Notes under the pieces: model-generated
Told to the model about the DNA's origin: nothing
What the model saw: only the letters and a program-made list of their open reading frames with translations
Database searches by the model: none
Made by a program: the position numbers and the translations under genes
In this document: in pieces, positions 15,323 through 30,973 of the stretch
Layout of the letters: each line of letters starts with the position of its first letter
Numbering within the stretch: position 1 is the first letter of the stretch
Virus record (IMG/VR): IMGVR_UViG_3300048672_001166
Coordinates: 1 to 32,582 of that record
Direction: 5' to 3' (one strand)
Source of the DNA: a virus
DNA length: 32,582 bases

Positions 15323-15981
15323 TGAAGCTGCATCATCTTTTCATGGAAGATTATTCGGTAAGGGCGTTAAACGATAACAACCCGTTAAATTTTCCTAACC
15401 TAACCGACCCATCAATCTCTGAAGCAGGTTCCTATGACGCCCATGCTGTCTTTTCATCTTTTGAGAAAGAGCATCTGGGGCTGGTATATTATTTTATTAC
15501 CGTTCATCAAACTCCAGATTCCATTAGCCGTGAAGATGTAATGGCCTACATCATGATTCATATGAATGAAACAGAGGATGGATTAAATCAGTTTAGAGAA
15601 CTTTGGGTCAATCCATCAGCCAGAAATAAAGGGTATGGAACAGCCCTCATCAGGTTCCTTACCCAAAAACTGCAAGTGAAATTGCTTCTTGCCCATGATG
15701 AAATCGTCTCGGCACCGATGCGTACTTTGTTAAAGAAAGCTGCCATTTCTGACTATCGGAAATTCAAAATTAAAAATAGAGACGGTGAACTTTATACAGT
15801 TGATGAACTGACGACCATTCTGAACGACATCCATTTGAACGATGTGGAGTTGGTTATCTCTGAACAGAAATCGAAATGGCCGTTATTTGCCAATCGTAAA
15901 TTTGACAAGGATGGTAAAGCCTGCTTGATTGAACACTATAGCTGTATTCAAGCTGACTGTGAAACTGAATGGTTAGACTAA
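15322..15981 (+). CDS. GNAT acetyltransferase-like protein with capsid-targeting-like N terminus (paralogue)
   Basis: 219 residues. Residues 101-110 (RNKGYGTALI) are the acetyl-CoA-binding loop of GNAT enzymes, after the strand VMAYIMI. It is a full-length paralogue of 10034-10699 with the same domain order and the same WLD end. The N terminus MKLHHLFMED is close to the MKLxxLFES tag; a head protease cut would fall after the Glu. It is co-translated with the DUF1353 gene and followed by a strong terminator. Two diverged copies in separate late units suggest different targets. Confidence 0.78.
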   Translation: MKLHHLFMEDYSVRALNDNNPLNFPNLTDPSISEAGSYDAHAVFSSFEKEHLGLVYYFITVHQTPDSISREDVMAYIMIHMNETEDGLNQFRELWVNPSARNKGYGTALIRFLTQKLQVKLLLAHDEIVSAPMRTLLKKAAISDYRKFKIKNRDGELYTVDELTTILNDIHLNDVELVISEQKSKWPLFANRKFDKDGKACLIEHYSCIQADCETEWLD

Positions 15982-16004: not shown

Positions 16005-17735
16005 TCATTCTATCAGTGAACTGAACCCATGATGCTTTCTAACCAACATCTGTTGGTCAAGTCGGCCACGGATGTTGGGATGGTGACTGATGACATATAC
16101 GCCAATTTGCTCATCCCTCGATTTCTCTTTCAGCACTTTGATAAAAGCATCAAGGCCGGAATCATCAAGGCCGCCATCGAGTTCATCGATAAGTAAAATA
16201 TTGAACCAGTTTTTAGACAGGCCAGCAATATCACGGAACGCCAGACTGAGTGCCATGTTCGCCCGTTTCGTCTCACCTTTACTCAACATGCCAAAATCAA
16301 TCTCTCTGCCAAACTCTGTCACTTCGCACGTCATGTCCGCATTAAATTTCAGTTGGTGCGGCAATCCAAGTTTTTTGGAGTAGGTCTTGATTCTGTCGTT
16401 CAGAATTGGTAACTGCTTGTTGATGATGTTTCGCCGAATGAACGAATCTTTGTTAGTTAACAGCTTGAGCAAAAATTGCTGATGAGTCAAGCGACGTTGC
16501 AATTCATCAATTTTACCAGTGTCTACTGAAAAAGAAGTTGCGCGTAGCGAGTCAAGATTTTCCACGTGTGGATTTGATGCTTGACGCAACGTTTCAAGTT
16601 TACTGCGAGTTGATTGCTCAGATAACCTCGCTTGGATAATGGTGTCAAGATTCGGAATGATGTCTGGCATGATAACTAATTGCGACGCACAGACAGCAGT
16701 ATGCTCTGATTCTAGTTTAGTAAGTTGACTGGCAATATCTTGTGCTTGGCCCGTTAATGAATCAATAACGACGGTAATTTTATCAGCCCTTTCATTTGCA
16801 TCATGCAGCGCCTGTTCGCAATAAGGGCATTTGGCATTTTGCAACGTGGTCAACTCTTTTTCTTTTTGCGTCAATTCTTTGTCAAGTTTGTTGAAATCGT
16901 ATTCCAACGATTTCATTTGATTTGCCAACTCACGCTCTTTTTGTTTCAAGTCGGACATTTGTTTAGCCAGATTCTGCTGTTCAGTAATGTCCACTTCAAT
17001 TTCAGCGGACGTTAATTGAGTCGTTAGTTTATCAATTTCGGTCAAAGTGTCTTTATACCACTTATCCACGCGCAGTTGAGCTTCTTTCACTTGCTTTTCA
17101 TGATGGGTGACCGCCGTTCGTTGTTGAGCAACAACAGCCTCTTGCACCTTCAAGTCACTTTCAGTATTCTTTATCCTGTCTTTCAGTCTAGCAGCTTTTT
17201 CGGACAGTAGGCCGATGTTGAAAATTTCTTCCACGAACGCACGTTGCTGACTTGCGGGCAGGTCAAGGAATGGGATAGAATCACCTGAGAAGACAATGGT
17301 CTTGGTGAAGACTTCGTAAGACATGCCAAGGAGGTTAGCAACCATGTTGTCAAGTTCGGTGACGGATTTGCCGGGGGTGATATCGACACCTTCGCGTTGC
17401 AAGCTGAATTGATTACTGCCACCTCGGCTGCGGTACAGTTGATATTCAACCGAGTCCACCGAGAAATTGATGGTGGTTTCCATCGCCACTTTTTGTGAAG
17501 CATTGGTCAAATTCATCAGGTTTGACATTTTGATTTTTGACAAAGGGGAGCCATACAGGGCATAGCAAATGACGTTCAGGATAGTTGTTTTTCCGGTGCC
17601 ATTGCGTAACGTCGGTACGTCAAAATTCTCGCCAACAATTTCAAACGTGTTAGGTTTCGTTAAATCAATATAGGTTTCATTGTTGCCGAACGCCATGAAA
17701 TTCTTGAACGTAATCCAGTTTAGGGTAACTCGCAT
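16005..17735 (-). CDS. 46: Recombination endonuclease subunit gp46 (SbcC/Rad50-like ATPase)
   Basis: 576 residues from the ATG at 17735 (T4 gp46 is 560). The N-terminal Walker A is NGTGKTTI at about residue 47. Long coiled coils flank a zinc hook CPYCEQ near the middle. The C terminus has the ABC signature LSKGETKR and Walker B ILLIDELDGGLD, followed by a switch His in VISHH. It forms with gp47 the Mre11-Rad50-type complex that resects DNA ends for recombination-dependent replication. The partner gene lies about 6 kb away rather than next to it, because the plus-strand block 17798-22661 sits between them. The promoter TGTTACAAT lies 25 nt upstream and is shared with gp47. Confidence 0.95.
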   Translation of the reverse strand: MRVTLNWITFKNFMAFGNNETYIDLTKPNTFEIVGENFDVPTLRNGTGKTTILNVICYALYGSPLSKIKMSNLMNLTNASQKVAMETTINFSVDSVEYQLYRSRGGSNQFSLQREGVDITPGKSVTELDNMVANLLGMSYEVFTKTIVFSGDSIPFLDLPASQQRAFVEEIFNIGLLSEKAARLKDRIKNTESDLKVQEAVVAQQRTAVTHHEKQVKEAQLRVDKWYKDTLTEIDKLTTQLTSAEIEVDITEQQNLAKQMSDLKQKERELANQMKSLEYDFNKLDKELTQKEKELTTLQNAKCPYCEQALHDANERADKITVVIDSLTGQAQDIASQLTKLESEHTAVCASQLVIMPDIIPNLDTIIQARLSEQSTRSKLETLRQASNPHVENLDSLRATSFSVDTGKIDELQRRLTHQQFLLKLLTNKDSFIRRNIINKQLPILNDRIKTYSKKLGLPHQLKFNADMTCEVTEFGREIDFGMLSKGETKRANMALSLAFRDIAGLSKNWFNILLIDELDGGLDDSGLDAFIKVLKEKSRDEQIGVYVISHHPNIRGRLDQQMLVRKHHGFSSLIE

Positions 17736-17759
17736 CAAACAGAAAATTTTGTAACCTTG

Positions 17760-17768
17760 ATTGTAACA
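17760..17768 (-). promoter_or_regulatory. Extended -10 promoter TGTTACAAT for gp46
   Basis: TGTTACAAT on the minus strand, 25 nt before the gp46 ATG; identical to the elements before the polymerase, gp47 and gp55. Confidence 0.65.
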
Positions 17769-17777
17769 TGCCCGCCC

Positions 17778-17784
17778 GTAAATA
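17778..17784 (+). promoter_or_regulatory. T4-type late promoter (GTAAATA) for the internal-protein-like operon
   Basis: CGTAAATACTG. It ends only 13 nt before the TTG start at 17798, so the leader would be very short. It lies 10 bp from the divergent gp46 promoter. Confidence 0.55.
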
Positions 17785-17797
17785 CTGATTTGAAAGC

Positions 17798-18862
17798 TTG
17801 ACCGACAAGAAATTAGCTACACTTTTTGAATCTGCGCAGGTCACTGACCTATCGAAACGATTGCTGTATGGTTACCCTGACAAATATCACACTATGGCAG
17901 ATTTGTGTTTATTGGCTGATGCGGCTGAAAAAAGTCCAGGGACAATAGCAATTTGGCCGTATTCTGAGAGGTTGGCTCTGACGTTCGACCCGGCAGACCC
18001 CACTTATATTAAAGACAATACCAACGACGTTAAACTGACAAGCATTCTACCTCTCATCTTGCGCCCGGATAATTTTATCACCATTTATGAATGGGTTAAC
18101 GAACGGTATGGCGCCGAGTATGAGTATCAAAAATTAAAAGCTCTAAAATTTCTGGCGGTCAAAGCATTCACTCCTTTCTTTTCTAATCCCCAAAATTTTG
18201 ATATGGGGTCTGACGATATGGAAGATTTTATCGATGCGGCCAAACAAACTATCCAATCACTAATTCGTGCTGGCATTCCATCCCATTTGATTTTTGGTTC
18301 TGCTTATACGATGGCTACCGTCAAACAAGCCATTCGTGACATCCTTGCAGCGTATAAACGAGAATTTACGCATACACATTCAGCCGATTTCAGTAAACAT
18401 TCCCCTGCGGATATTTTTAACGTTTTCAGCGAAGCGTTAAAAGACCCGTCATTTGACGCGGATGAGTCGGTGCCAATCGTGAAAGAAATTAGCCGGATGA
18501 TATCTAGTATCGGTGATTGGGTGGACAACTACGCCGAGTTAGTTAAAGCAACCCGTGATGCTTATGGGATTTTTAGCGTCGGTGAAGTTGTGAACGAACC
18601 GGAATATCTTCAAGGTGTGCATGTGGGCAATATCTGTCGCCACGTAGTTAAATGGATGCGCAGTGGGCAAATTATTCCACCGGCTTTGATTCCAATCATC
18701 AACGCAACTGCTGAAAAGATTGATGCATGGGTAGTTAAAGAAATGGAAAAACAGCATCTCTCTGGCATCAAATTTTTAGATGCCAATCCAGTTATGTCTT
18801 TTGTGCTGGCAGCGACTAAACGGCCAGAACTCTCATTCACTGCCAAAAGCCTCAACACCTAA
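17798..18862 (+). CDS. Internal-head-protein-like paralogue 1 (LFES tag)
   Basis: 354 residues from a TTG start preceded by GAAAG; there is no in-frame ATG nearby. The N terminus contains KLATLFES, a variant of the MKLxxLFES tag of the next three genes; LFE followed by Ser fits the T4 head protease rule (I/L-x-E, then A/G/S). A middle segment around residues 148-195 (DAAKQTIQSLIRAG...HLIFGSAYTMATVKQAI) matches a conserved helical block in the others. The protein is soluble and helical, with no enzyme motif. Expected to be packaged in the head and perhaps injected. It is first in a four-gene late operon. Confidence 0.65.
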   Translation: MTDKKLATLFESAQVTDLSKRLLYGYPDKYHTMADLCLLADAAEKSPGTIAIWPYSERLALTFDPADPTYIKDNTNDVKLTSILPLILRPDNFITIYEWVNERYGAEYEYQKLKALKFLAVKAFTPFFSNPQNFDMGSDDMEDFIDAAKQTIQSLIRAGIPSHLIFGSAYTMATVKQAIRDILAAYKREFTHTHSADFSKHSPADIFNVFSEALKDPSFDADESVPIVKEISRMISSIGDWVDNYAELVKATRDAYGIFSVGEVVNEPEYLQGVHVGNICRHVVKWMRSGQIIPPALIPIINATAEKIDAWVVKEMEKQHLSGIKFLDANPVMSFVLAATKRPELSFTAKSLNT

Positions 18863-18874
18863 CCATCCAAAATC

Positions 18875-20065
18875 ATGAAACTTTCACACCTATTTGAATC
18901 AACGGAAATTATCGACTGCATGGAGCAGCCGTTCAAATTTGGCTTGGCTACCGGCGTCAGCATAGTTTTGACGAAACCGGCAGCCAAGCCACGTGTTCAA
19001 GGAATGAGTTCGTACATCGAAACCGACTACGCTTTGCGTTTTCCTGGTGATGGGAATGCTTATCAAGCTAAATCTTTTGCCATTTTTGCGTCAGGTGAAA
19101 CGGTCGCCGCCGCACCTGAAAAATACGGCCCACAAAAGATTGGCATTCTGAAAACGTTTTTCACTACTCGAACCTTCACCGGACGCTTTAATATTTCTCC
19201 ACTACTTGACCCTCATGGAGATATTGAGCTAAAACTAGAGCAGCAATATACGTGGTTTGTGAAAGCGTTTAACAACCTTGCGTACCTGTATTACCACGCG
19301 CATGTGAATCATTCTATGGATGAAGATGCGTATGAAGATGAGCTTGACCGTGCGAAAAACAGTCTGAAACAAATTATTTCAACTCTCTCGCATGATATGC
19401 ATCTATCTCATGCCACCATTTTTGGTAAGCACACACTAGCCAGTTCGATGAAACTAATCGAACAGGGTGTCAAAGAGTATGTGAACGAAACTGCTATCCA
19501 TACTCATAATATGGAAAATCATGTTGACGAACTAACAGCCGAAGAAGAAGGCCAAACATGGGATTGGTCACAAAAGCTTGAAAAATTTGATGCTGAACAT
19601 ACCTATAACGAAAAAGCTTCTGAACTGTATTATGAAAAGTGGAAACGTGTTCAGTTTACACCGTTCATCCGAAACAACGCCGATATTGATAAAGCGTGTT
19701 TTTTCAATAGCGACGCCGGCACTTCCTGCACGGATTTCAGTTTTCACGACATTACTGCTGAACTGTATATTCCAAATCCTAACCTCTTTTCCAAGCCGAT
19801 AGCAGAACAGATGCGCAAAGATTTTGAAGAACTCGATGGAATGTTGTTAAATTCGTTCAAGGCCATGGAAGCAAAGTGCAAAGGTTTGAATATCCTTTTA
19901 TATATGAGTGGCGCTATCAACGATATGCAAAAGGTTCTGTCTGCCGTTGGATACAATAGCGCGCTGGCTAAATACTTGAAACAATATGCTACTGATTTGG
20001 TTGCTGAGTATGCTACGCCGGCCACTGCAACTCGATTCTCCAAAAAAAGCATTGATGGTACTTAA
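18875..20065 (+). CDS. Internal-head-protein-like paralogue 2 (MKLSHLFES)
   Basis: 396 residues from an ATG 12 nt after the previous stop. It begins MKLSHLFES, a clean match to the tag. The conserved block is at about residues 150-200 (RAKNSLKQIISTLSHDMHLSHATIFGKHTLASSMKLIEQG), followed by VNETAIHTHNMENH. The N-terminal part before the block is beta-like and differs from the other paralogues, so the family seems to combine a common core with variable ends. No known domain is recognised. Injected head proteins in T4 act on host RNA polymerase or restriction enzymes; the role here is unknown. Confidence 0.65.
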   Translation: MKLSHLFESTEIIDCMEQPFKFGLATGVSIVLTKPAAKPRVQGMSSYIETDYALRFPGDGNAYQAKSFAIFASGETVAAAPEKYGPQKIGILKTFFTTRTFTGRFNISPLLDPHGDIELKLEQQYTWFVKAFNNLAYLYYHAHVNHSMDEDAYEDELDRAKNSLKQIISTLSHDMHLSHATIFGKHTLASSMKLIEQGVKEYVNETAIHTHNMENHVDELTAEEEGQTWDWSQKLEKFDAEHTYNEKASELYYEKWKRVQFTPFIRNNADIDKACFFNSDAGTSCTDFSFHDITAELYIPNPNLFSKPIAEQMRKDFEELDGMLLNSFKAMEAKCKGLNILLYMSGAINDMQKVLSAVGYNSALAKYLKQYATDLVAEYATPATATRFSKKSIDGT

Positions 20066-20137
20066 ATCTGATGGATGGGGAGATTTGACGATGGCTGTAG
20101 AACAGGATTTTATTGACACAGTGGAAAAGGGTGGAAA

Positions 20138-21406
20138 GTGAAACTACAAAACTTATTTGAATCATCCGGCACGCTAGATTTTTCTAATCTAACCGATGTC
20201 ACCAAGTATTACGGTAATACTAAATCGTCCGAGATTGTTGCATATAACGCGTCTGACAATTTTGGCGCCGACAGTTTTGAATTTAGCAACCCCGGAGAAC
20301 ATCCGTATGTGCTTTGGGGGCCGGCCGATAGTAACTTCCCCAATAAACACGCGGTTGGGCTAATTGGTTCTATTATAGCCAGTGCTTTTATACCAAAAGC
20401 GATTAATGTTCGCGTGTCAGAGGTAAAAATTTCTCCTGAACAGATTAGTAATCGAGAAGAATTGGAAGATAAACTTAACCATCTAGCCACTCTCGGCGGG
20501 AAAGCGAGCCGATACGCGGATGTTGACGATAGAACACCTGAAGATGAAAAATTTTTAAAGTCTCAAGGGCATTTGGATGAAATTGCTGACCAGCGCGAAG
20601 AAACCTTGGACGAGTTTAAATATGCAGCGAAAGACATTGCCAAATTCCTTATCAATGTTTGCGGATTCCATATGAAAGTCATTCTTGGTTCAAAGAATAT
20701 GGCAGGGGTTAGCAAACTCGTTGATGACATTTATGAAATGCATAACCAATCCAAAGTTCATGCAAAGACGCTAATGCATCATCTTGAAAAAGCTCCAACT
20801 GAAAAAACTGCTTCGAGCTGGCACACGATACTAAATTATATCGAGAATCGTAGATTGACATCGCTTTCCGCCATAGAATCCGAATTACTGACTTCGGGTA
20901 TGCTCACCCACCTGTTCAAAACAGATTCTGTGCTGAAACCGACAATATTGCAGTCGGTGTTCAACGATTTGAAAAATATGCATCTGGTCGCCAATGCGTT
21001 TTATGTACAATCAGATGTGTCACATTTTCAGGCGGATAAAATCTGTAAGTTCCTTCACCCGGATGATAAAGACCGTATAGCTGAACAGCTTAAAAAGATT
21101 TCAGGTTCTGTTATCAAAACCTGCCAAGAAACTAAAAAGACTGACACCGACATTATTATATTTTCCGACGCAGACCACGTCGGTTTAAAAGTGATAATGC
21201 ATCTAGATAAATGGTATCAAGAGTGTGGCGGGGAAAATGAATTGCCCTGTGTGCCATATCTTAAAACGCTTATGAGTTCTCAATACCATTTCCTGAATGA
21301 TTATTTAAGAACATCTGGTGTACATATTCAAGGGGCACGAATTCCATCAGGTTATACACGGCTGATCGCCCGAGTAATCTCCAATCTATCGGATTTGTCG
21401 GGCTGA
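20138..21406 (+). CDS. Internal-head-protein-like paralogue 3 (MKLQNLFES)
   Basis: 422 residues from a GTG start with GGTGG upstream. It opens MKLQNLFESSGTLDF, nearly the same as the next gene, and the two share LIGSIIASAF near residue 75, the block LDEFKYAAKDIAKFLI...VILGSKNMAGVSKLVDDI, and VHAKTLMHHL. It is helical and soluble, with no membrane span. The pair 20138/21426 is a more recent duplication than the split from 17798 and 18875. A 72-bp gap separates it from the previous gene with no promoter seen. Confidence 0.68.
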   Translation: MKLQNLFESSGTLDFSNLTDVTKYYGNTKSSEIVAYNASDNFGADSFEFSNPGEHPYVLWGPADSNFPNKHAVGLIGSIIASAFIPKAINVRVSEVKISPEQISNREELEDKLNHLATLGGKASRYADVDDRTPEDEKFLKSQGHLDEIADQREETLDEFKYAAKDIAKFLINVCGFHMKVILGSKNMAGVSKLVDDIYEMHNQSKVHAKTLMHHLEKAPTEKTASSWHTILNYIENRRLTSLSAIESELLTSGMLTHLFKTDSVLKPTILQSVFNDLKNMHLVANAFYVQSDVSHFQADKICKFLHPDDKDRIAEQLKKISGSVIKTCQETKKTDTDIIIFSDADHVGLKVIMHLDKWYQECGGENELPCVPYLKTLMSSQYHFLNDYLRTSGVHIQGARIPSGYTRLIARVISNLSDLSG

Positions 21407-21425
21407 CCCGAATAGGAAAAAAGCT

Positions 21426-22661
21426 ATGAAACTACAAAACTTATTTGAATCGGGAAGTGGCGTAATCGATTTTACCGATTTACCCACTGTTAAAAAGTAT
21501 TACGGTGGCACTAAAAATCATTTGACATCGGTAATGGCTGGTCCCCCCAATACATTATCTGCACAATTTATTTTCAACCCTGAACCGGCCGCACCGACCG
21601 TTAGTTGGCGCGAGAGTATTCATGGAATTAACCACGAAGTATCCGGACTTATCGGGTCTATTATTGCATCAGCATTTACGCCCGCAATGTGCAAACCCCA
21701 ACTTCTTTCTTCAGCTACCCATGAAATGCGAGATGCGTGCACCGAGATTCGCACCCGGCTTGAAGCTCTATCCCGGATAGGGAATAAAGTTGGGCAATAT
21801 ACCATTTTACCCGATAACGAACACACTGAAGCGGATGAAGAACGATTTGAAGATTCGTTAGATGATTTCAAATCTGCTGTGAAGGTGGTAGCAAAAGAAC
21901 TCATCTCTCGTGGATTTTCCTCAAAGGCCATCCTCGGTGGAAAATCCATAGCAAGTCTGGGTAAATTAGTTGACGACATTCATGCTATCCATACTAAGTC
22001 GCGGGTTCATGCCGGTTCTTTACTGACCCATTTGCAAAGGGCTGCCGATGATGGAGGGTTTGAAAAAATTTTGGAATATTTGCAAAACCATCGAAAGTTA
22101 CCACTATCCGCTGATGAGTCCAATTCGGTCACGTCTGCTATCCTGAACGACGATATTTTTATAACCAATAGCCATGTGCAATTCATACGGAACACTTTGG
22201 ATTCAGATATGTCCATCATGCGCGCTCGCTCGGCACTAAAACCCCTTGGAATCAACGTTTCAAAGTTTGTTCCAAAGTACCGTAGTATTTTTACCTCTGA
22301 TATCGCGCGCATTATCGATCTGCTTCTTCCAGCCGATACGCTGCGCATAAAGAACCAACTAGAAGCACTCTCACAGGGGTGTGTCTCAGCTATTGAGTCG
22401 GCAATACGCTCTGAACATGATATTGTTGTTTTTTCTTCGGGAACTAAACACGGGCCATCACTTTTTCCCATATTGAACAAATGGTATGCTGCTGCTGCTG
22501 GTGGTGACGGTGATTTGCCGTGCATAGGCTACATTGAGAATAATCTAAAACGGGGTAGTCAAGTTATTTCCTCGGTAATAAAAGACGCCGCCGATAAACA
22601 GAAGCTGACGCTGAATAGCCTTGAAAAACTAATAGCCACCAACCTTTCTCAGTTGGCATAA
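21426..22661 (+). CDS. Internal-head-protein-like paralogue 4 (MKLQNLFES)
   Basis: 411 residues from an ATG with AGGAAAA upstream. The tag MKLQNLFES is identical over nine residues to the previous gene, followed by LIGSIIASAF, AVKVVAKELISRGFSSKAILGGKS and VHAGSLLTHL at matching positions. Sequence between these blocks has diverged strongly. The DNA coding for the tag is also nearly identical between the two genes. It is the last gene of the late operon, ended by a strong hairpin at 22664-22690. Confidence 0.68.
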   Translation: MKLQNLFESGSGVIDFTDLPTVKKYYGGTKNHLTSVMAGPPNTLSAQFIFNPEPAAPTVSWRESIHGINHEVSGLIGSIIASAFTPAMCKPQLLSSATHEMRDACTEIRTRLEALSRIGNKVGQYTILPDNEHTEADEERFEDSLDDFKSAVKVVAKELISRGFSSKAILGGKSIASLGKLVDDIHAIHTKSRVHAGSLLTHLQRAADDGGFEKILEYLQNHRKLPLSADESNSVTSAILNDDIFITNSHVQFIRNTLDSDMSIMRARSALKPLGINVSKFVPKYRSIFTSDIARIIDLLLPADTLRIKNQLEALSQGCVSAIESAIRSEHDIVVFSSGTKHGPSLFPILNKWYAAAAGGDGDLPCIGYIENNLKRGSQVISSVIKDAADKQKLTLNSLEKLIATNLSQLA

Positions 22662-22663
22662 AT

Positions 22664-22690
22664 AAAAAGCCGGGCAATGCCCGGCTTTTT
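22664..22690. terminator. Rho-independent terminator, bidirectional, identical to 2655-2684
   Basis: The stem AGCCGGGC / GCCCGGCT with loop AAT is flanked by A- and T-runs, the same as the hairpin after the gp26 unit. It separates the convergent late operon and the gene ending at 22689. Confidence 0.92.
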
Positions 22691-23111
22691 AGTACCATTT
22701 TCGAGGATGCTCTGTTACGAACAAATCAATCCCTCGGAAAGAATCAGTTTTTACCACCCAATCAACATCATCTGGAATGGTGACTACTTTCAACCACGGG
22801 TCTTGATTGGAAGGGAAGAATTCTTTTCCCATGAACGTTATCACATCAATCAGCGCGCCATCTAATCTATTGTCGTCCATGTATTGAAACGTGTACACAG
22901 CCGAATCAGAAAAGAACGTTTCATAAAAATGAAGCAGCTTTCTGATGTCCGGCGTTACAGCCGTGCATTCTTCATAGTCCGAGTCTCTTAGCCAAGACAC
23001 CCTCTCAATCGGCTCACAATCGACGCAGGCGCTCTTTAATTCAATCAGATGAAGCATCGCATCATCTGAGATGGGCAACAGCCCTGGAAGCGTTTTAATG
23101 ACGATCTGCAT
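22689..23111 (-). CDS. Hypothetical protein
   Basis: 140 residues from the ATG at 23111. A longer in-frame start at 23183 lies deep in the upstream gene and has no ribosome site. It opens MQIVIKTLPGLLPISDDAM and has Cys residues at ACVDC (CxxC-like spacing) plus acidic and aromatic residues. The CVDC could be half of a metal site. It overlaps the 69-residue gene by 17 nt. Function unknown. Confidence 0.6.
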   Translation of the reverse strand: MQIVIKTLPGLLPISDDAMLHLIELKSACVDCEPIERVSWLRDSDYEECTAVTPDIRKLLHFYETFFSDSAVYTFQYMDDNRLDGALIDVITFMGKEFFPSNQDPWLKVVTIPDDVDWVVKTDSFRGIDLFVTEHPRKWY

Positions 23112-23304
23112 GTGGGTTCCACAGTAGGAAAAATTGTTCAATTTGGCAATTGGCATATTCCATCCCTCGCAAATTGAACTCATTCATCTGTTCAAGTAGG
23201 TTATTCGCTTTCGTCACCAGATGTCGGTCTGACAGCGAAAAGGCGTTATATTCTTCGGCTAGCAGTTTAAGCATATCCATCTGCATTTTAGAAATATCCA
23301 TCAT
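23095..23304 (-). CDS. Small helical hypothetical protein
   Basis: 69 residues; it starts inside the gp47 stop codon (TAATG), so it is coupled to gp47. The N-terminal two thirds form a Met/Leu-rich helix (ISKMQMDMLKLLAEEYNAF, LLEQMNEFNLRGM). It may be a cofactor of gp47 by position only. Not recognised. Confidence 0.6.
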   Translation of the reverse strand: MMDISKMQMDMLKLLAEEYNAFSLSDRHLVTKANNLLEQMNEFNLRGMEYANCQIEQFFLLWNPHADRH

Positions 23305-24323
23305 TACTCCAATTCTTCGTAAAGTTCAACCAAAAATTCGTTATCAACTGTATTCGCCCCCAACACCCCTTGCCTAATCATCGTTTTGATTTCAGTATGA
23401 AGGTTTCCTGAAAACTCTACATCTAACGTCTGTTCCAAAATATCTTGTTTAGCAATAGCTTCTTCTTCCACCGTAAAATCTCTCAGAGAAAATATATCAA
23501 TCATTTCCTGCCGGATGTGCTGAACTTCGGTGTAAGGTAACTGCATATCAAGCCGGCATAAAACTCGTGTCTTCGGTTTGTAAATCACATCCCCAGAAAT
23601 GACCTTTGACAGTGTGGTGTATTCGTATAACGGCGCATCTTCCCAATCGTAAAATTGAAGCGAGTTCGTTTGAGAATCTAACAAAGCACACCCTCTATCT
23701 GAATCACCCGCATCACCGAAATTACTTGGCACACAGTTGCCAATATAAACAGTATTACCTTTTCTCTGACGCTTATGGTAATGTCCGGAAAAGATGAATA
23801 ACGGTTTGTGATACAGTTCAATTTCCGGCCCATGTTCCATTTTGTTAGAACTACCCGAAATGATGAAGTCTTTGAATTCAAAGTGGCCGAGAACGTATTT
23901 GTATTTGTTAATTTCTGATGCCATCTCCGCATATTCATGCTTGAACAGAAAGGGCACGGCAAACAAATCACGGGTCAATTCGGTTGGCTTATCAATCAGG
24001 ACGAAGTTGCTAAATTCGTTGAAGTGAGAAGTGGAAAAGATATCCCGGTTGTTCCGCTGGTGCAGGTCATGGTTGCCGATTAGAAAGTAAACGGGAAGTC
24101 CGAGGGCGTTTAGCATCTTCGCCCCTTCTTGCGAATAGTGAAGGGTTTTGACAGAGATGGCATGTCGGTTCTCAAACCAGTCGCCGAGGAAAGCGACATG
24201 AGTCGCTTTCTCTTGTTTTGCTTTTTGACAGAACCACTGTAAGAAGTCTAGGCAATCAAGGTTATGTTCTTCCGAATTACCCCTCGCGCCAAAATGGATG
24301 TCAGTGAATTGAATTAGTCGCAT
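23304..24323 (-). CDS. 47: Recombination endonuclease subunit gp47 (Mre11/SbcD-like)
   Basis: 339 residues, the same length as T4 gp47. The phosphoesterase motifs are all present: D8-x-H10 (FTDIHFG), D48 (GDWFENRH), N84-H85-D86 (GNHD), H147 (LGHFEF) and H181-x-H183 (SGHYHKRQ). These coordinate two metal ions. With gp46 it processes DNA ends for recombination and replication restart, and helps degrade host DNA. The promoter TGTTACAAT is 24 nt upstream, the same spacing as gp46. Confidence 0.96.
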   Translation of the reverse strand: MRLIQFTDIHFGARGNSEEHNLDCLDFLQWFCQKAKQEKATHVAFLGDWFENRHAISVKTLHYSQEGAKMLNALGLPVYFLIGNHDLHQRNNRDIFSTSHFNEFSNFVLIDKPTELTRDLFAVPFLFKHEYAEMASEINKYKYVLGHFEFKDFIISGSSNKMEHGPEIELYHKPLFIFSGHYHKRQRKGNTVYIGNCVPSNFGDAGDSDRGCALLDSQTNSLQFYDWEDAPLYEYTTLSKVISGDVIYKPKTRVLCRLDMQLPYTEVQHIRQEMIDIFSLRDFTVEEEAIAKQDILEQTLDVEFSGNLHTEIKTMIRQGVLGANTVDNEFLVELYEELE

Positions 24324-24359: not shown

Positions 24360-24770
24360 TCATTCATTACCTTCATCTTCAAATCCGAAACTTGGATTGG
24401 CACCAATTTGCAGTAATAGCTTATCTTTGATTTTAGCCTGATTGTGCTCAGAGTCTAAAAAACTGCGAAATGCCCGATGAGTGGCAGTGGTGTAGTAGGA
24501 AAATGGGTTATTAGACTTTTCCGGATTGAACTTATACCAGTTGGCGGACAGGATGACAATCGCGTGTGCAATCATATCTTCCTTATAAGTAAATCGATTG
24601 AACCAGGGATGATTGGAGTATCTAGTTGCAATCAGCATCAAGCATCGTCCTAGTTCGTTCGTCAAATACCCAAGCTCTTTAGATTCCTTGAATGCTTTCA
24701 GAATCTCGGCATTGGTAACGTAATGCCCTTTGGTGCTGGTTGATTTTTCTCTCTTGTGTGTAGTAGCCAT
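24360..24770 (-). CDS. 55: Late transcription sigma factor gp55-like
   Basis: 136 residues (T4 gp55 is 185). The match to T4 gp55 runs YVTNAEILKAF (T4 YVNNKELLQAI), then LGRCLMLIAxxYS...FTYKEDMIAHAI (T4 LAIMLIAE...QEMIADGI), KFNPEKSNNPFSYYTTATHRAFRSFLDSE (T4 [25 protein letters not shown]). It is a minimal sigma region 2 that directs host RNA polymerase to late promoters together with the sliding clamp. The T4 C-terminal part is shortened, though the tail remains acidic (EDEGNE), where T4 has its clamp-binding segment. The late octamers in this window are consistent with it. Confidence 0.85.
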   Translation of the reverse strand: MATTHKREKSTSTKGHYVTNAEILKAFKESKELGYLTNELGRCLMLIATRYSNHPWFNRFTYKEDMIAHAIVILSANWYKFNPEKSNNPFSYYTTATHRAFRSFLDSEHNQAKIKDKLLLQIGANPSFGFEDEGNE

Positions 24771-24809: not shown

Positions 24810-24817
24810 CATAAATA
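24810..24817 (+). promoter_or_regulatory. Late promoter octamer (CATAAATA)
   Basis: CATAAATA overlaps the first in-frame ATG (24817), so transcription from it would start past that codon. This favours the ATG at 24844 for the next gene. Confidence 0.5.
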
Positions 24818-24843
24818 TGGTTTACTTGAACAGAATTCTGACC

Positions 24844-25455
24844 ATGCATTTGAAACCAAAACAAGACAAAAATGCCGTTGTCGCTATAGGAAGATTCTCA
24901 TCCCCGACCAAAGGGCATTATTTCTTGTTTGACAAGATGCGTAAATTCATTCGGACTGACAAAGCAAAAGAGCTGAAGATAAGTATCATTCCTATTGTCG
25001 TCATCATCGACGGGGAAGAAACTGGCAAGGATAAGCAGAAGAATCCGTTATCACCGCACGAACGAATCAAATTTATGCAGGCATCCGGAAAAGCTGACGG
25101 GTTGAAATTCCTGATAGCTAAGAATGCGGTTGATGCATTTAACGAAGTGCGCAAACAAGGGTATGAGCCGTTAGTTATTGCGGCCGGTTCAGACAGAAAA
25201 ACAAACTACTTAAAAATACTTGATGAAACTTTCACGGACAATGGGAAGAAAATGACGCATTACGCTATCAGAGGATTGGACAGAACGGATGATGAGTCAA
25301 CCGATATTTCCGCCACGTCCGGGACAAAAATGCGGGAGGCGGTCATAAATAATGATTACGAACGGTATCTTGATTTGTCCGGCTTGGAACATAAACCTGA
25401 GTTAGCTAAACAGATGTTCGACAAACTGAAAAAGGTGTTACATGGGGATTCTTGA
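24844..25455 (+). CDS. Nucleotidyltransferase (NMN adenylyltransferase / cytidylyltransferase-like)
   Basis: About 203 residues. GRFSSPTKGHYFLFDKM near the N terminus is the GxFxPxxxGH nucleotide-binding motif; SGTKMREAV near residue 165 is the ISxTxxR-type second motif (here SATSGTKMR). The fold transfers a nucleotide to NMN, pantetheine phosphate, or a similar substrate with release of pyrophosphate. Related proteins occur in large T4-like phages, sometimes with NAD-salvage genes. The start at 24844 is chosen because the late promoter covers 24817, although its ribosome site is weak. It overlaps the next gene by 14 nt, linking it to baseplate synthesis. The substrate cannot be told from sequence. 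Confidence 0.78.
   Translation: MHLKPKQDKNAVVAIGRFSSPTKGHYFLFDKMRKFIRTDKAKELKISIIPIVVIIDGEETGKDKQKNPLSPHERIKFMQASGKADGLKFLIAKNAVDAFNEVRKQGYEPLVIAAGSDRKTNYLKILDETFTDNGKKMTHYAIRGLDRTDDESTDISATSGTKMREAVINNDYERYLDLSGLEHKPELAKQMFDKLKKVLHGDS
25344..25351 (+). promoter_or_regulatory. Possible internal late promoter (CATAAATA)
   Basis: Same octamer as 24810, inside the nucleotidyltransferase gene, 90 nt before the tube-cap-like gene. Weak support. Confidence 0.25.
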
Positions 25456-26440
25456 CCAAGCAATTTTAAGAGCGGCGAAAGGGTCGGCGGCATCGTTAGT
25501 TATCAAATCAACTACTGCCGTAATCAATAACACCGTTACATCCATTGGCGCCATTTTCGGTGTCAAGAATCCGTTTTCAAAACTGAACGCGCAAGGGTTG
25601 GCAAATAGCTTATCCCCCGCTCCAGCAAATCCGCCGTCTGCGGAACAAATGAATATCATGACGGGCCGCGTTGATTTGGACGACCAATCGCATAAGGTAA
25701 AACTTTATGTCACGAATGGATTTGCGAAAACATACAACTTTGGTAATGCTTCAACTAACATTCTTAATTCAGTGGATTCAAGTCAAGTTATTTTTGAAGT
25801 GCAGCCACAAGTGCAGGAGCATCGAAGCGCGCAGTATGAAGGCGTGAACATCAGTCAAATGCCAGGACAGTTTCAAAAGTATAAAGGGAGTCAATCCGTT
25901 TCGTGGAATATCACGGCTGAGTTTGTTTCTAGAAATGCTGCTGAAGCAACTCAAAACTTGATTAACTTATTGAACCTTCGTGCTTGGCTTCAACCGTTTT
26001 TCGGGGAGAAGCAACATCAAGAATTTGACGGGGCATTAGGAGCACCACCACCGATTATTTGGTTTTCTGGCTGGCGTGGTCTAATTGGGCCGGTGCCAAC
26101 GGTCATGACTGATTTATCATGTACTCACGGCTCCGAAGATTGTGACTGGATTCCTACAAATATCATGGCGGCAGATGTTGATGTATCAGATTTCACGTAT
26201 TTGTCCGGGTTGAGTATGTATCAGCCAATCCGAAAAGAAATCGATGGATTCAAACAGAATGGCAATATGGTCGTTCCGTTTCCAGTAGTTATGCAAGTAT
26301 CTATTTCTCTACTTGAATCATTCTCGGTAGCGCAATTTAACGGATTTGATTTGCAAGCATTTAGAGAAGGTAGGATGGTTTCTGCGTGGAGTCCGTCAAT
26401 TACTACCCAACAAGTTGTTAACGAAGTTAGAGGGTCATGA
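25442..26440 (+). CDS. Baseplate tail-tube cap/initiator, gp48/gp54-like
   Basis: 332 residues (T4 gp54 320, gp48 364). The N terminus is Ala/Ser-rich and helical. The middle has IIWFSGWRGLIGPVP, and the last third alternates strands ending GNMVVPFPVVMQVSISLLESFS, like the C-terminal tube-domain strands of gp48/gp54 and related tube proteins. Cys pairs occur at LSCTHGSEDCDW. These proteins sit on top of the baseplate hub and start polymerisation of the tail tube. Its place directly before gp53 fits. Which of gp48 or gp54 it corresponds to cannot be settled. Confidence 0.65.
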   Translation: MGILDQAILRAAKGSAASLVIKSTTAVINNTVTSIGAIFGVKNPFSKLNAQGLANSLSPAPANPPSAEQMNIMTGRVDLDDQSHKVKLYVTNGFAKTYNFGNASTNILNSVDSSQVIFEVQPQVQEHRSAQYEGVNISQMPGQFQKYKGSQSVSWNITAEFVSRNAAEATQNLINLLNLRAWLQPFFGEKQHQEFDGALGAPPPIIWFSGWRGLIGPVPTVMTDLSCTHGSEDCDWIPTNIMAADVDVSDFTYLSGLSMYQPIRKEIDGFKQNGNMVVPFPVVMQVSISLLESFSVAQFNGFDLQAFREGRMVSAWSPSITTQQVVNEVRGS

Positions 26441-26811
26441 TGCCAAATTATAATTCGACATTAGTCAAATCATCCCGGTATGCGGCCGGTGGGTCTACCG
26501 AAGTTGGTGATAAGCTTGAATGGTGGAATCGAACGAATTACACCTTGACAGGGACTGAATCCGTCTTTACAATCACGGATAAGTATCAAGGAAGACTTGA
26601 TTTGATTGCTTATGATTTGTATCAAGACTCAAGTATGTGGTGGCTCATCGCCATGCTGAACAACATTCTTGACCCGTTCACGGAAGTAGTAGTTGGTAGA
26701 GAACTTTACGTGCCCACCAAGCAAAATGCCGTTAAAATGCTGGGCGCAAAAATAGGCGGTATTCAATCACAGAAAGAATTGCCGCCTATGCAGATTACGC
26801 CGAGAGTTTAA
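26437..26811 (+). CDS. 53: Baseplate wedge protein gp53-like
   Basis: 124 residues (T4 gp53 is 196). The segment DLIAYDLYQDSSMWWLIAMLNNILDPFTEVVVGRELYVP is the gp53/LysM-type core that links baseplate wedges; it is strongly conserved among T4-like phages. The C-terminal extension of T4 is absent. It overlaps the previous gene by ATGA, and its stop overlaps the convergent minus-strand gene by 4 nt. Confidence 0.85.
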   Translation: MMPNYNSTLVKSSRYAAGGSTEVGDKLEWWNRTNYTLTGTESVFTITDKYQGRLDLIAYDLYQDSSMWWLIAMLNNILDPFTEVVVGRELYVPTKQNAVKMLGAKIGGIQSQKELPPMQITPRV

Positions 26812-27182
26812 CTAAAGGTCTGATTAGACATTTTAGCCCCTAGCGACTTTTGTTTTTTCGGATTGGGAGGTTGCCCTGAGCCAGAATCATCATGGGAAAG
26901 AACTGCATATAGACGCAGTTCGTTTGGGTTAGAACCCATCATCGTGTAAAACACGCTGACATCATGCGTTAAATGCGCATGTTTAATTTTTGGAATAGCA
27001 GTTGCTAACGGCGTGCCAGCAGGATTAGCCTTATCGGAACTCCGGTAAGGCTGATTGGGATTTTCTGATTTGGCTTGAATGAACGCACCAAGCTCTTTGA
27101 GAATTTTAGCCCCGTCTTTCGTCCCCTTCAATTCGTTTACGCACTGAACGTAAAACGGGCAGGTCAGCAATTTAACTGCCAT
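26808..27182 (-). CDS. Toxin-like protein of a two-gene unit
   Basis: 124 residues from the ATG at 27182, overlapping the upstream 63-residue gene by 11 nt. The C-terminal half has IKHAHLTHDVSVFYTMM, then LRLYAVLSHDDSGSGQPPNPKKQKSLGAKMSNQTF: a strand-strand-strand pattern with conserved-looking His, Asp and Lys residues, as in small mRNA-interferase folds (RelE/YafO type). The order antitoxin then toxin, short overlapping genes and an insertion against the direction of the late block all fit a toxin-antitoxin pair. The family is not firmly recognised. Confidence 0.5.
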   Translation of the reverse strand: MAVKLLTCPFYVQCVNELKGTKDGAKILKELGAFIQAKSENPNQPYRSSDKANPAGTPLATAIPKIKHAHLTHDVSVFYTMMGSNPNELRLYAVLSHDDSGSGQPPNPKKQKSLGAKMSNQTFS

Positions 27183-27363
27183 GAGCGGGAACCTCCCCGC
27201 GCAGCAGCGCAGCAATGTAGGCATCCACATCCTTCACTTCGGTGAAGGTTTGGTGTTGCGCTTCAACCACCAGCGCGGCGTCAGACACATTGATGTTCGC
27301 TTCTTCGGCAAGCAGGATGGCGTTAGTGGTGTCGCTCATGTCAAGTACCTCGTTAATTTTCAT
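27172..27363 (-). CDS. Antitoxin-like small protein
   Basis: 63 residues from the ATG at 27363, or 55 from the ATG at 27339, which has the better ribosome site (GAGG). It is acidic and helical (NAILLAEEANINVSDAALVVEAQ), as expected for an antitoxin that neutralises a basic toxin. It overlaps the toxin-like gene by 11 nt. A minus-strand TGTAAATA octamer lies upstream. No DNA-binding domain is evident. Confidence 0.5.
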   Translation of the reverse strand: MKINEVLDMSDTTNAILLAEEANINVSDAALVVEAQHQTFTEVKDVDAYIAALLRGEVPAHGS

Positions 27364-27411
27364 GATGCAATCATATCCTTTTCAGAAAGACAGGTCAAGT
27401 CCTGTTACATC

Positions 27412-27419
27412 TATTTACA
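27412..27419 (-). promoter_or_regulatory. Late-type promoter octamer (TGTAAATA), leftward
   Basis: Minus-strand TGTAAATA, 49 nt before the ATG at 27363; back-to-back with the rightward octamer at 27430. Confidence 0.45.
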
Positions 27420-27429
27420 TTTTGATAGA

Positions 27430-27437
27430 GGTAAATA
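27430..27437 (+). promoter_or_regulatory. T4-type late promoter octamer (GGTAAATA)
   Basis: GGTAAATACTG ends 18 nt before the hub gene ATG at 27456; the same extended sequence (GTAAATACTG) occurs at 17778. Confidence 0.62.
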
Positions 27438-27455
27438 CTGAAAACGATAGAACGA

Positions 27456-29546
27456 ATGGCTACCAACCGAATTGAAAATCCTCTGGACAAGTTCCAATCC
27501 TATTCGACACATTTCATTATGGCGGCCTGTCGATCAACGGAAGATTTACACGTCCTGACCGATGATAACCCATTTCAAGAAAAGCGTGCTTTGGAAATTA
27601 TCAATGAGGCTAAATTTCTGGGCGATAGTCTGAACGTCAATTCAAATCCGGATTCAGCGTTTTTACTCATTGACACCCGGCGATTTGCTCAGTACACCGT
27701 TGATAACTATTCCCTCACTACTAAAATTCACGGGTTCGCCATCCCTGGCTCTAAAAATCCGTCATCTACTGGAAGCACTTTATCGTTCGACATCATTGAT
27801 GCGACCGGCATTTCATTCGCCAATTTTCTCCAATGGATTCAGGATGCCAAACTAAAAGTCGGCCTGCAAGGGTTGATTTTTGTCATGAAGGTTATTTTCG
27901 TCGGTCATAGTCAAGATAACACCACTTCCACTATTCAAACCATTTCCATTCCGTTCTCGTTCAAAAAGATGGAAATGGAGATGACGGACGTGTATGGACA
28001 TTACAGGTGTGAAGCATATCCACTCGTCGGCCTCATTTCCAACTCGGAGAAAAATCCAGAATGGACACGTATTGGCACTGCATCGAGTTATTTCTCAGGG
28101 GAGAAAATTAACACCCTTGGTGCGATGGTGAACGCTTTTGAAAAGGAACTGAACTATAAGGCATTGGAAGCGTATGCGAAACGGCAAGTGTTGAATGTGC
28201 AAGCAGGAGGTACATTTGAAAATGGTGTACTTACTCCTTCAAACGTTCGTTATGGTCGGCCGGTCAAATACTTAATCACGGTTCCGAGCAAATGGGAAAA
28301 CTTTACGTTTGCCGGCGCCAATTCAAATTCATCCGAAGAAACTAACTTCAAAGAACAGTTTAAGAAACGGGAAGCAGCAACTACCAAACAAATGCAGGAT
28401 GCAGTGATTGAATGGCAGAAGAAAAACCCCGGCAAAGATTTTCACATGTCGGTTGATACGTCTTCATCCATTACAGATGTTTTGACGGAAATTTTCAAGC
28501 AAGTGCCGCAAATCGCCGAACTTGGCAACTTCAAAAAGCAATCACCTGACCAGCCAATCGAGTTTTTCAAGTATCTAATATCTGTTACTTCATCAAGTGA
28601 AGATTATCTAGTTCATATCGATGTCATTGAATATGTCGTCCCTAACGTATATTTGCAGGACAAGCAAGCAAAATCAAATACGGTCGCGGAATCAATGCCT
28701 GACTATTTCACGAAAGATGATGATGGATTAGTAGTCCCTAAAAATTTCATCGAGTATGATTATCTGTTTTCAGGGACGAACGTTGATGTCATTCACCTAG
28801 ATATCAAACTTGAAAATTTAGTCTATGTGTTAGCCAGTCGGCCGGCGATGGGTGGTGATTTATTGGCAGTCAAGTCAGATGCTGGGCAAAATCAACAAGA
28901 TGCAACTGTCGCACCAAAAGTCGAAATGTTATCCATCATGCGACAAAATGACCCGGTGTATATTCAACCGAGAACTGAACTGGAGAAAACTAACGCCAGT
29001 TCACTGTCCGCTGCCGATTCATCTACCACGTCCCAACTATTTCAAGAGTACACCAAAAATCTAGCCATGTTTTACTCGGCCGGTCATGCAACTCATCGAA
29101 TGGAAATTCGAGGCAATCCAGACATTTTTTATAAGTTTGCTTTGCAGAAATTGCCACCGCATGCTAACAATTTAACCATCGACGCCAATTCTGGCGTGTC
29201 ATCTATCAATGTGAAATCTAAAGCTGATTATCGGGAGGCGTTGCTCAAATCATTAGAGAATGATGAAATAACTACGGAAGATGGTAAGTTAGTTGTCGGT
29301 CTTTCAGGCCCATCTATCATGTCTTCACCCGTTTTTGCGAAAGTGAACGTTTACACGACAAACTATGATTTTCTCGCGGAAGACGCGAGAAATGGTGCAG
29401 ATTTTAGACAGCCATTCCTGAAAGACAATTATTTCTGGGTGTCGGAGGTGGTAAATAAAATCTCTGGCGGAACATTTACTCAAGAACTTGAAATGAGAAC
29501 TTATGCGTCGTATGGTGTGCCGAAATTTGGAGGGATTAGCAAGTGA
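27456..29546 (+). CDS. Large baseplate hub structural protein
   Basis: 696 residues. It begins NPLDKFQSYSTHFIMAA, a hub/tube-like opening, and consists largely of alternating strands with an Asn/Ser-rich coil near residue 285 and a charged helical insertion (FKEQFKKREAATTKQMQDAVIEWQKK) near 295-325. The C terminus (FWVSEVVNKISGGTFTQELEMRTYASYG) looks like the last strands of a gp27/VgrG-type hub domain. Position directly before the spike, sharing 4 nt with it, suggests it is the hub that carries the spike trimer (T4 gp27 role, but nearly twice the size). The exact family is not recognised; the start is the ATG under the late promoter. Confidence 0.6.
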   Translation: MATNRIENPLDKFQSYSTHFIMAACRSTEDLHVLTDDNPFQEKRALEIINEAKFLGDSLNVNSNPDSAFLLIDTRRFAQYTVDNYSLTTKIHGFAIPGSKNPSSTGSTLSFDIIDATGISFANFLQWIQDAKLKVGLQGLIFVMKVIFVGHSQDNTTSTIQTISIPFSFKKMEMEMTDVYGHYRCEAYPLVGLISNSEKNPEWTRIGTASSYFSGEKINTLGAMVNAFEKELNYKALEAYAKRQVLNVQAGGTFENGVLTPSNVRYGRPVKYLITVPSKWENFTFAGANSNSSEETNFKEQFKKREAATTKQMQDAVIEWQKKNPGKDFHMSVDTSSSITDVLTEIFKQVPQIAELGNFKKQSPDQPIEFFKYLISVTSSSEDYLVHIDVIEYVVPNVYLQDKQAKSNTVAESMPDYFTKDDDGLVVPKNFIEYDYLFSGTNVDVIHLDIKLENLVYVLASRPAMGGDLLAVKSDAGQNQQDATVAPKVEMLSIMRQNDPVYIQPRTELEKTNASSLSAADSSTTSQLFQEYTKNLAMFYSAGHATHRMEIRGNPDIFYKFALQKLPPHANNLTIDANSGVSSINVKSKADYREALLKSLENDEITTEDGKLVVGLSGPSIMSSPVFAKVNVYTTNYDFLAEDARNGADFRQPFLKDNYFWVSEVVNKISGGTFTQELEMRTYASYGVPKFGGISK
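29450..29457 (+). promoter_or_regulatory. Possible internal late promoter (GGTAAATA) before the spike
   Basis: The full octamer lies inside the hub gene, 86 nt before the spike start. It could add transcripts for spike and gp25. Confidence 0.35.
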
Positions 29547-30614
29547 GTTATAATCAGATTATGGAAGGAGTTGTTGTCGATAACAATGACCCGGAACAAC
29601 AAGGCCGAATCAAAATTTGGATTCCGGCCGTGGATGGTTCTGAATATAACATCGATTCACTATCATGGGCTTCATACATTTCCCCTTTGGCTGGTCAGAC
29701 ACGTGATTATCCGGCCGGAACACCGGCTTCAGCAACGTTAGGTTTAGTAAGTTATGGTTTCTGGATGATTCCTAAAAATGGCGCCATCGTCGCAGTTAGT
29801 TTTTTGTACGGTGACCCGAATCGGCGCATTTATCTGGGAAGCATGTTTAGAACGCATGGCAATCGGTCGTTGCCTGTTGGCAGAAATCGGAAAGATGTTG
29901 CTGATTATCCCGTGTCAGATACGTTAGAACCAATCGAGCCACAATATTCTAATTTGCAAGCTCAGTTCCAAAATAACTTAGGTGCATCGGAAGCACAGAC
30001 GCGCGGTGCGTATGAGCGGCAAGTTGCCCAAGATAAAACAGTTAAAGACGGTTCAGAAGGATACTCCAAATCAAAAGTGAATAGTCAAGATTTGGAACCA
30101 GATACTTACTGTTTAACAACTCCAGGTCGCCATTCGTTAATTTTCCAAGACTCTGCTGAAAATGGTCGAGTGAGAATGAAATCTGCCAATGGACATCAAA
30201 TCATTTTCGATGATGCCAATGAACGAATTTATATCTCGACTGCTAAAGGGAATAACTACGTTGAGTTAGACCAAGATGGACGAATTCACGTGTACGGTTC
30301 GGGCAGCATCAGTTTTTCATCAGGGGGTGATTTTAACATTACAGCCGCAGGTTAACATCGGTGCGACCGCCGCCATGAAAATGAATAGTTGCGGTGGTTT
30401 ACATTTGAGTGGGTCATCCGTCAATCTAGAATCGGGTGGCTCGATGAACTTTTTGGCGGCGGCAGGTCTTGTCCAAAGTGCCTCTACAATCGACTTAAAC
30501 GGGCCTACAGCAGCTTCGGCTGAATGTGCTAGCCCACCCTCATCCTCTCCCTCCCACGAGCCTTGGCCGCGTCCTGCATCGTCGGCAACTCGCAACCCGA
30601 ACTGGAAACCATAA
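29543..30614 (+). CDS. 5: Central baseplate spike, gp5-like, reading frame interrupted (+1)
   Basis: GTG start with GGAGGG upstream. Residues 1-115 form the OB-fold of gp5/gpV spikes (EGVVVDNNDPEQQGRIKIWIPAVDG, GAIVAVSFLYGDPNRRIYLGS). A polar linker follows, then beta-strands. The frame stops at TAA 30353-30355 after 270 residues, in the middle of the C-terminal beta-helix. The +1 frame continues the same eight-residue repeat in exact register (ITAAG, then NIGATAAMKM, GGLHLSG, SVNLESG, STIDLNG) and ends HEPWPRP...NWKP at 30614, the expected spike end, one base into gp25. The joined product is about 356 residues. The T4 lysozyme domain is absent. The cause is a one-base insertion, an assembly error or a programmed +1 shift. 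Confidence 0.8.
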
Positions 30615-30973
30615 TGTCTTATATCGGCTACTCAACTTTCGGTTTTGCTAAAAAGAAAAGCCTGTCAATGACAGGCCAAGAACTGATTAAGCAAGACATC
30701 TACAATCACATTTTCACGGTGAAAGGTTCGCGCCCACATCTTCCAAAATTCGGGACGCGAATCCCTTTACTTTCTTTTGAACAACTTGACCCAACGTTGT
30801 TAACGATTGTCCAAGAAGATTTATCCTACGTGTTCAAATATGACCCACGAGTTAGACTGATTGATATTAGCCTAAATCCGTTGCCGGCGAACAACGCGCT
30901 TGTCGCGTTTGTCGATATTGAATATGTCGAACTAGGCGGGAGGGACATTATGCAAATCAGTTTTGGTGATTGA
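30614..30973 (+). CDS. 25: Baseplate wedge protein gp25-like
   Basis: 119 residues from the ATG at 30614, which overlaps the spike stop (TAATG); longer in-frame starts lie inside the spike. T4 gp25 is 132 residues. The GPW/gp25 family pattern is clear: FTVKGSRPHLPKFGTRIPLLSFEQLD, then VQEDLSYVFKYDPRVRLIDISLNP and a final strand pair. It is the baseplate sheath initiator that contacts the first sheath ring; the family is also in contractile systems such as type VI secretion. Confidence 0.92.
   Translation: MSYIGYSTFGFAKKKSLSMTGQELIKQDIYNHIFTVKGSRPHLPKFGTRIPLLSFEQLDPTLLTIVQEDLSYVFKYDPRVRLIDISLNPLPANNALVAFVDIEYVELGGRDIMQISFGD

Follow-up and report, generated by a model that had tools for sequence, protein, structure and literature searches.

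A candidate capsid-targeting propeptide of the T4 type on diversifying, probably head-packaged proteins of a jumbo phage

Introduction

Why should four consecutive phage genes, whose products are otherwise largely dissimilar, begin with nearly the same nine residues? The window analysed here (the whole stretch of 32,582 nucleotides of IMG/VR record IMGVR_UViG_3300048672_001166) carries four such genes, A to D, with starts of the form MKLxxLFES. In phage T4, N-terminal propeptides are removed from gp24, gp23, Alt and the internal proteins (IPs) by the protease gp21 (PMC5694885), the IPs have only their leader in common (PMC3012670; PMC12373910), and IP1-3 are injected inhibitors of the GmrSD restriction enzymes (PMC12373910). 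The ejection proteins of SPN3US and phiKZ are cut by the prohead protease and form an injected bolus, and SPN3US gp53 and gp54 are paralogs of 34% identity with identical 15-residue N termini (PMC5694885). In phage P1, the large injected protein DarB is loaded through an N-terminal signal situated in its first 30 residues, and no consensus of this signal is common to other Dar proteins (PMC9024508). The original prediction likened A-D to the T4 proteins, as a set of injected factors that carry a cleavable capsid-targeting tag.

Results

A tandem gene cluster inserted between gp46 and gp47

Judged by its sequence, the source of the window is a giant T4-like jumbo phage of the PA5oct/Phosso/Atu_ph07 type that is known from environmental DNA. 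The top matches of its gp46 are to phages of this type (~30%), and the order gp46, gp47, late sigma factor, nucleotidyltransferase or virion protein, wedge, virion protein, hub-lysozyme and gp25 is near that of PA5oct and Atu_ph07, with the run from the nucleotidyltransferase onwards (Table 1) arranged as in these two phages. In PA5oct and Atu_ph07, however, gp46 and gp47 stand next to each other or almost so, whereas in the window A-D intervene on the other strand. A-D share this strand with the baseplate genes, while gp46, gp47 and the late sigma factor are encoded on its complement. The strong bidirectional hairpin that follows D is the end of the A-D transcription unit; this hairpin was not among the listings of the pattern scan. 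Promoter scans revealed neither an enrichment of T4-type late promoters above chance nor any sigma-70 promoter signal above chance. No portal, protease, scaffold or capsid gene lies within the 32.6 kb fragment; a gp21-type prohead protease is present in PA5oct, in Atu_ph07 and in two of the contigs described below (G002 and G012).

Table 1. Features of the window, with positions counted from its first nucleotide.
Feature	Position	Strand	Evidence or remark
Gene E, 221 aa, GNAT-like, tag variant MKLQHVVED	10034-10699	+	PF00583 22.0 bits, cut-off 20.7
Gene F, 219 aa, GNAT-like, tag variant MKLHHLFMED	15322-15981	+	PF00583 25.7 bits, cut-off 20.7
gp46-like (SbcC-type) recombination subunit, left flank of A-D	16005..17738	-	phrog_77 4.5e-87
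Gene A, 354 aa, TTG start, begins MTDKKLATLFES	17798-18862	+	ORF; weak homology to B-D
Tag of A	17798-17833	+	predicted cut after Glu11
Gene B, 396 aa, begins MKLSHLFES	18875-20065	+	ORF
Tag of B	18875-18901	+	predicted cut after Glu8
Gene C, 422 aa, GTG start, begins MKLQNLFES	20138-21406	+	ORF; 34% identical to D
Tag of C	20138-20164	+	MKLQNLFES
Gene D, 411 aa, begins MKLQNLFES	21426-22661	+	ORF; 34% identical to C
Tag of D	21426-21452	+	MKLQNLFES
Strong bidirectional terminator hairpin after D	22664..22690	.	AAAAAGCCGGGCAATGCCCGGCTTTTT, -21 kcal/mol
gp47-like (SbcD-type) nuclease, right flank of A-D	23304..24323	-	phrog_100 1.7e-57
gp55-like late sigma factor	24360..24770	-	phrog_234 4.6e-28
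Nucleotidyltransferase and baseplate/virion gene run, strand of A-F	24817..30973	+	PHROG matches

The prediction of four consecutive genes that open with MKLxxLFES-like starts and encode proteins of 354-422 residues was borne out by the plus-strand ORFs A-D. The N terminus of A extends three residues ahead of the shared Lys, and TTG is the sole usual start codon ahead of its tag, since a stop codon interrupts the frame four codons further upstream. C and D align over 389 aa (E=1e-54), and the other pairs give weak, partial matches (E 1e-2 to 1e-4, ~16-21% identical). By these alignments A-D are tandem paralogs of one family, and the common tag is therefore partly inheritance, so that the original notion of four separate factors overstated their independence, while it understated the size of the set, since genes E and F are tagged as well. 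Searches of Pfam and PHROG found no domain in A-D. An identity as Alt-type ADP-ribosyltransferases (ART) was rejected, as neither database gave an ART match in A-D. A structure model of D (AF2, four sequences) is weak and helical (pLDDT 42) and was too poor to be included in the fold search.

The tag is conserved as a peptide

To gauge how unusual the shared start is, we compared it with the remainder of the proteins. Tag identity amounts to 8/8 residues for C-D and 6/8 for all other A-D pairs, and outside the tag it falls to 125/389 residues (C-D) and 16-21% (other pairs). The pattern M.{0,3}[KR][LIV]..[LIF][FIL].?E fits 4/48 called ORFs of the window, a count that leaves out B because it was mis-started by the ORF caller used, versus a mean of 0.02 and a maximum of 1 in 2000 shuffles. 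The proposed genome search for MKLxxLFE likewise recovered the ATG-started DNA pattern twice in the record and not once in the backward control. At identical tag residues the same codon is used no more often than elsewhere in five of the six pairs. The exception is C-D, in which 7/8 tag codons are alike (P=0.02), a likeness that may reflect recent gene conversion. As the bodies have diverged and tag codons are unbiased outside C-D, the conserved thing is the peptide.

These comparisons bear on the possibility that the tag marks ancestry only, i.e. that A-D are recent tandem duplicates whose start has no role of its own. Their paralogy and the shared C-D codons speak for it, yet the tag has been kept, in different codons, on bodies that retain 16-21% identity, and it also occurs on the unrelated proteins E and F and, elsewhere, on a GNAT and an Acb1. 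We consider this explanation most improbable, and in its pure form we reject it, because the tag outlasts body divergence and is found on proteins of other families.

Unrelated proteins carry the same start

E and F are 47% identical to each other and align with A-D over residues 1-9 only. The F model (pLDDT 66) is GNAT-like with moderate confidence, its first 20 residues being disordered or of low confidence, and its Foldseek matches are mostly GNATs (E 3e-3 to 5e-2); as a query against named phages, F gave no match. Because two unrelated families, A-D and E/F, have the tag in common, shared ancestry alone does not suffice to explain it.

Outside the window, the tag precedes further GNATs (MKLKHLFES in contig L144, MKLAELLES in G002) and nucleotidyltransferase-like proteins, the latter by weak matches. 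It also occurs on an anti-CBASS Acb1 (L153:7263-7739, +; PF23474 9e-36), where MKLIDLFES stands directly ahead of the first strand; a near-identical copy lies in L165 (start 938, -). T4 57B, also an Acb1, is without the MKLxxLFES extension, unlike the tagged L153 protein, whose start suggests that this Acb1 may be delivered from the head. The window itself contains no Acb1. From the presence of the tag on unrelated proteins (GNAT, nucleotidyltransferase-like, Acb1), it would follow that it serves as a loading label in general use, with the bodies as its cargo.

Several other tagged proteins were encountered. The Acb1 homolog gp57B of Vibrio phage KVP40 (L213:1501-1956) begins MKLSKFLES, unlike T4 57B; KVP40 showed no convincing wider tag set, and this start, which could be due to chance, is given as a lead only. 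Two proteins, L156:6313-7419 (-), starting MKLRELFES, and L182:5000-5968 (-), starting MKLAEIYPLTEA, match phrog_12810 of unknown function (8e-8 and 6e-16, respectively), and their LWRG/LYR motif hints, by eye, at an ADP-ribosyltransferase. In G011, two tagged proteins (L173:18345-19996, +; MKLRQIIESP and MKLRALLETP) match phrog_4301, likewise of unknown function, and have a GxGSSR loop of kinase-like appearance.

Tagged relatives lie in tandem clusters of other viruses

Single-protein searches with A-D members against named phages, viral contigs and prokaryote genomes returned no relatives, no A-D homolog was detectable in PA5oct, in Atu_ph07 or in the contigs closest by gp46, G001 (44%) and G002 (37%), and the A-D alignment was too diverse for a pattern scan. 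We therefore turned to the MKLxxLFES DNA pattern, which hit 26 stretches of the viral contigs, a few contigs having several tagged ORFs each. The same pattern gave 24 single matches in the control, a prokaryote collection of 257 billion bases, and it opened ORFs of at least 80 aa in 8/24 of the prokaryote matches versus 29/33 in the viral set.

Two contigs of one other metagenome, G011 (200 kb) and G012 (48 kb), encode MKLxxLFES proteins in tandem clusters. Five tagged genes of G012 are located inside a T4-type head cluster, among portal, protease, scaffold and major capsid genes (assigned by similarity to PA5oct proteins, E 1e-16 to 1e-93); the T4 gene order in the corresponding interval is 20-67-68-21-22-23. 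A G012 tagged protein found no match among named phages. The G011 cluster has six tagged genes ahead of the gene for the large terminase, and its paralogs 170686 and 171920 are without the tag. To assess relatedness of the bodies, the first ten residues were removed before profile searches. A tag-stripped A-D profile run against 2394 proteins had four best non-self matches that were all tagged (P=1e-8), each of them individually weak (E 0.008-0.09), and conversely a tag-stripped G011/G012 profile recovered both B (7e-10) and A (3e-6). Since tag-stripped profiles link the bodies, A-D and the G011/G012 proteins form one fast-diverging family, and by these profile matches this family is large and occurs as tandem clusters in one or more other groups of viruses.

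On the same G012 contig (L179/L180, ~16565-23335), a Cas3 gene (PF22590 1e-16) is found beside phage tail and head genes, and the genes after it resemble, by eye, the remainder of a type I CRISPR-Cas operon.

The strongest rival explanation is that the tagged proteins are structural components associated with the prohead core or scaffold, akin to T4 gp67 and gp68. These components would be required for head assembly and would either be degraded or stay in the head, and the tag would target them there without their being effectors for injection. In favour of this, protease and scaffold genes bracket the G012 cluster, T4 core genes 67 and 68 share the head operon, and neither A-D nor their relatives have a recognisable enzyme domain, the weak D model being helical. 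On the other hand, gene number, size (213-445 aa) and place vary between viruses, with placement in the gp46/gp47 gap (window), before the terminase (G011) or in the head cluster (G012); divergence is very fast; and the same tag sits on GNATs and Acb1, which are not scaffold proteins. We regard a structural core role as unlikely.

The tag resembles a prohead protease site

The leader of A-D ends in LFE-S, which conforms to the prohead protease site pattern of L/I-x-E followed by a small residue, and the T4 gp24 and Alt starts (MAKINELLRES and MELITELFDED, respectively) obey the L-x-E rule like the tag. In T4, cleavage occurs after residue 10 of gp24 and after residue 65 of gp23. When we aligned the capsid proteins, the FLTE-AE site of T4 lined up with FLVE-NA in PA5oct, ALME-TA in G012 and HLIE-SA in G002. 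As these aligned major capsid protein (MCP) sites agree, the protease of this clade probably reads L-x-E and then a small residue, a specificity deduced from the alignment with which LFE-S is consistent; the earlier proposal that LFE-Ser fits the head-protease rule thus agrees with the sites of the clade itself. The fit is poorer for E (VVE-D) and F (LFME-D) than for the LFE-S of A-D.

Leaders of this kind were also sought in related phages. In PA5oct, a comparable leader is present on 5/93 proteins detected by mass spectrometry (MS) versus 4/295 other proteins, a marginal difference (p=0.04) that came from a stricter pattern refined on these same data; with a looser pattern (LxE anywhere near the start) there was no enrichment (14/93 MS-detected versus 53/295). 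The stricter count ties such leaders directly, if weakly, to virions. Proteins with such leaders in PA5oct include 82921 (MKINDIITE), 157529 (MKIKDILVE), 261429 and 262099. Atu_ph07 has its own MRLxxLLE-like version of the leader on five proteins versus 0.1 expected.

We also observed a tandem trio in PA5oct (260677-262300; L142:10677-12300) with the leaders VRLNEINLIETS, MKILEFNLTEK and MKLSEICILESS, two members of which are MS-detected in virions. In many jumbo-phage contigs (L032, L046, L051, L066, L072, L076, L092, L098 and L103), an orphan protein encoded downstream of gp46 has a MKIxEIIxES-type start, followed by a Gly/Ala-rich stretch, and no PHROG match.

The start might instead be an uncut assembly helix for another part of the virion, serving in tail, baseplate or core docking. 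Baseplate genes are neighbours in the window, and tagged genes of G013 are found among tail sheath genes. By contrast, the start keeps a Glu behind L-x, followed by a small or acidic residue, and resembles the T4 gp24 and Alt propeptides; in T4, ipI is likewise far from the head operon. We judge an uncut helix to be quite unlikely.

Discussion

On balance, we favour the reading that MKLxxLFE/S is a T4-style capsid-targeting propeptide on diversifying, head-packaged and probably injected proteins. Capsid targeting by the tag is well supported by comparison: the predicted tag draws strong comparative support from unrelated tagged proteins, from relatives in a head cluster and from the L-x-E agreement. 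What we infer is that the proteins dock to the prohead core, are cleaved, reside in the virion and are injected, and that A-D affect the host. The tag would dock each protein onto the growing prohead core; during head maturation, a gp21-type prohead protease would, on the strength of the motif agreement, cut after the Glu of L-x-E, so that the predicted mature proteins start with Ser; and the trimmed proteins would remain inside the head alongside the DNA and probably pass into the host upon infection.

The closest parallel is with T4 IPI-III and Alt, which like the window proteins possess a short N-terminal leader that opens with MK- or M.L-, shows a hydrophobic pattern and has L/I-x-E ahead of a residue that is small or acidic, as in Alt. 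Both phages have several leader-bearing members, and in both the leader is placed on otherwise unrelated proteins, that of the window (8-12 residues) being common to A-D and the GNAT-like E/F. The T4 IPs differ in that they are small and have MKTFKEF-type leaders with a later Glu (IPI), whereas the window proteins have MKLxxLFES and span 219-422 aa; A-D are moreover one diverged paralog family, unlike the IPs. The gp24 propeptide (MAKINELLRE/S) has almost the same peptide pattern as the tag, but gp24 is a capsid vertex protein and not cargo. In SPN3US and phiKZ, which belong to another phage lineage, propeptides mostly exceed 100 residues and the motif is A-x-E or S-x-E. We rejected a phiKZ-type propeptide, since the motif of the window is L-x-E and lies inside the first 8-11 residues.

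As for the role of the cargo, our leading guess, by analogy with T4 IP1-3, is that it would act against host defences or in host takeover early in infection. A serious if still tentative possibility is that jumbo phages of this group have a large virion-delivered set, readable from sequence by one short capsid tag, which would comprise a dedicated cargo family (A-D and the G011/G012 proteins) together with tagged enzymes (GNATs and, in other phages, Acb1), such that anti-defence functions would arrive together with the DNA, ahead of all phage gene expression. If true, a nine-residue tag would permit the injected-protein set of uncultured jumbo phages to be read from sequence, for which the T-even internal proteins are a precedent. 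It would also define a new family of fast-evolving cargo proteins that lacks known homologs, and would predict head-delivered acetyltransferases and a head-delivered anti-CBASS enzyme.
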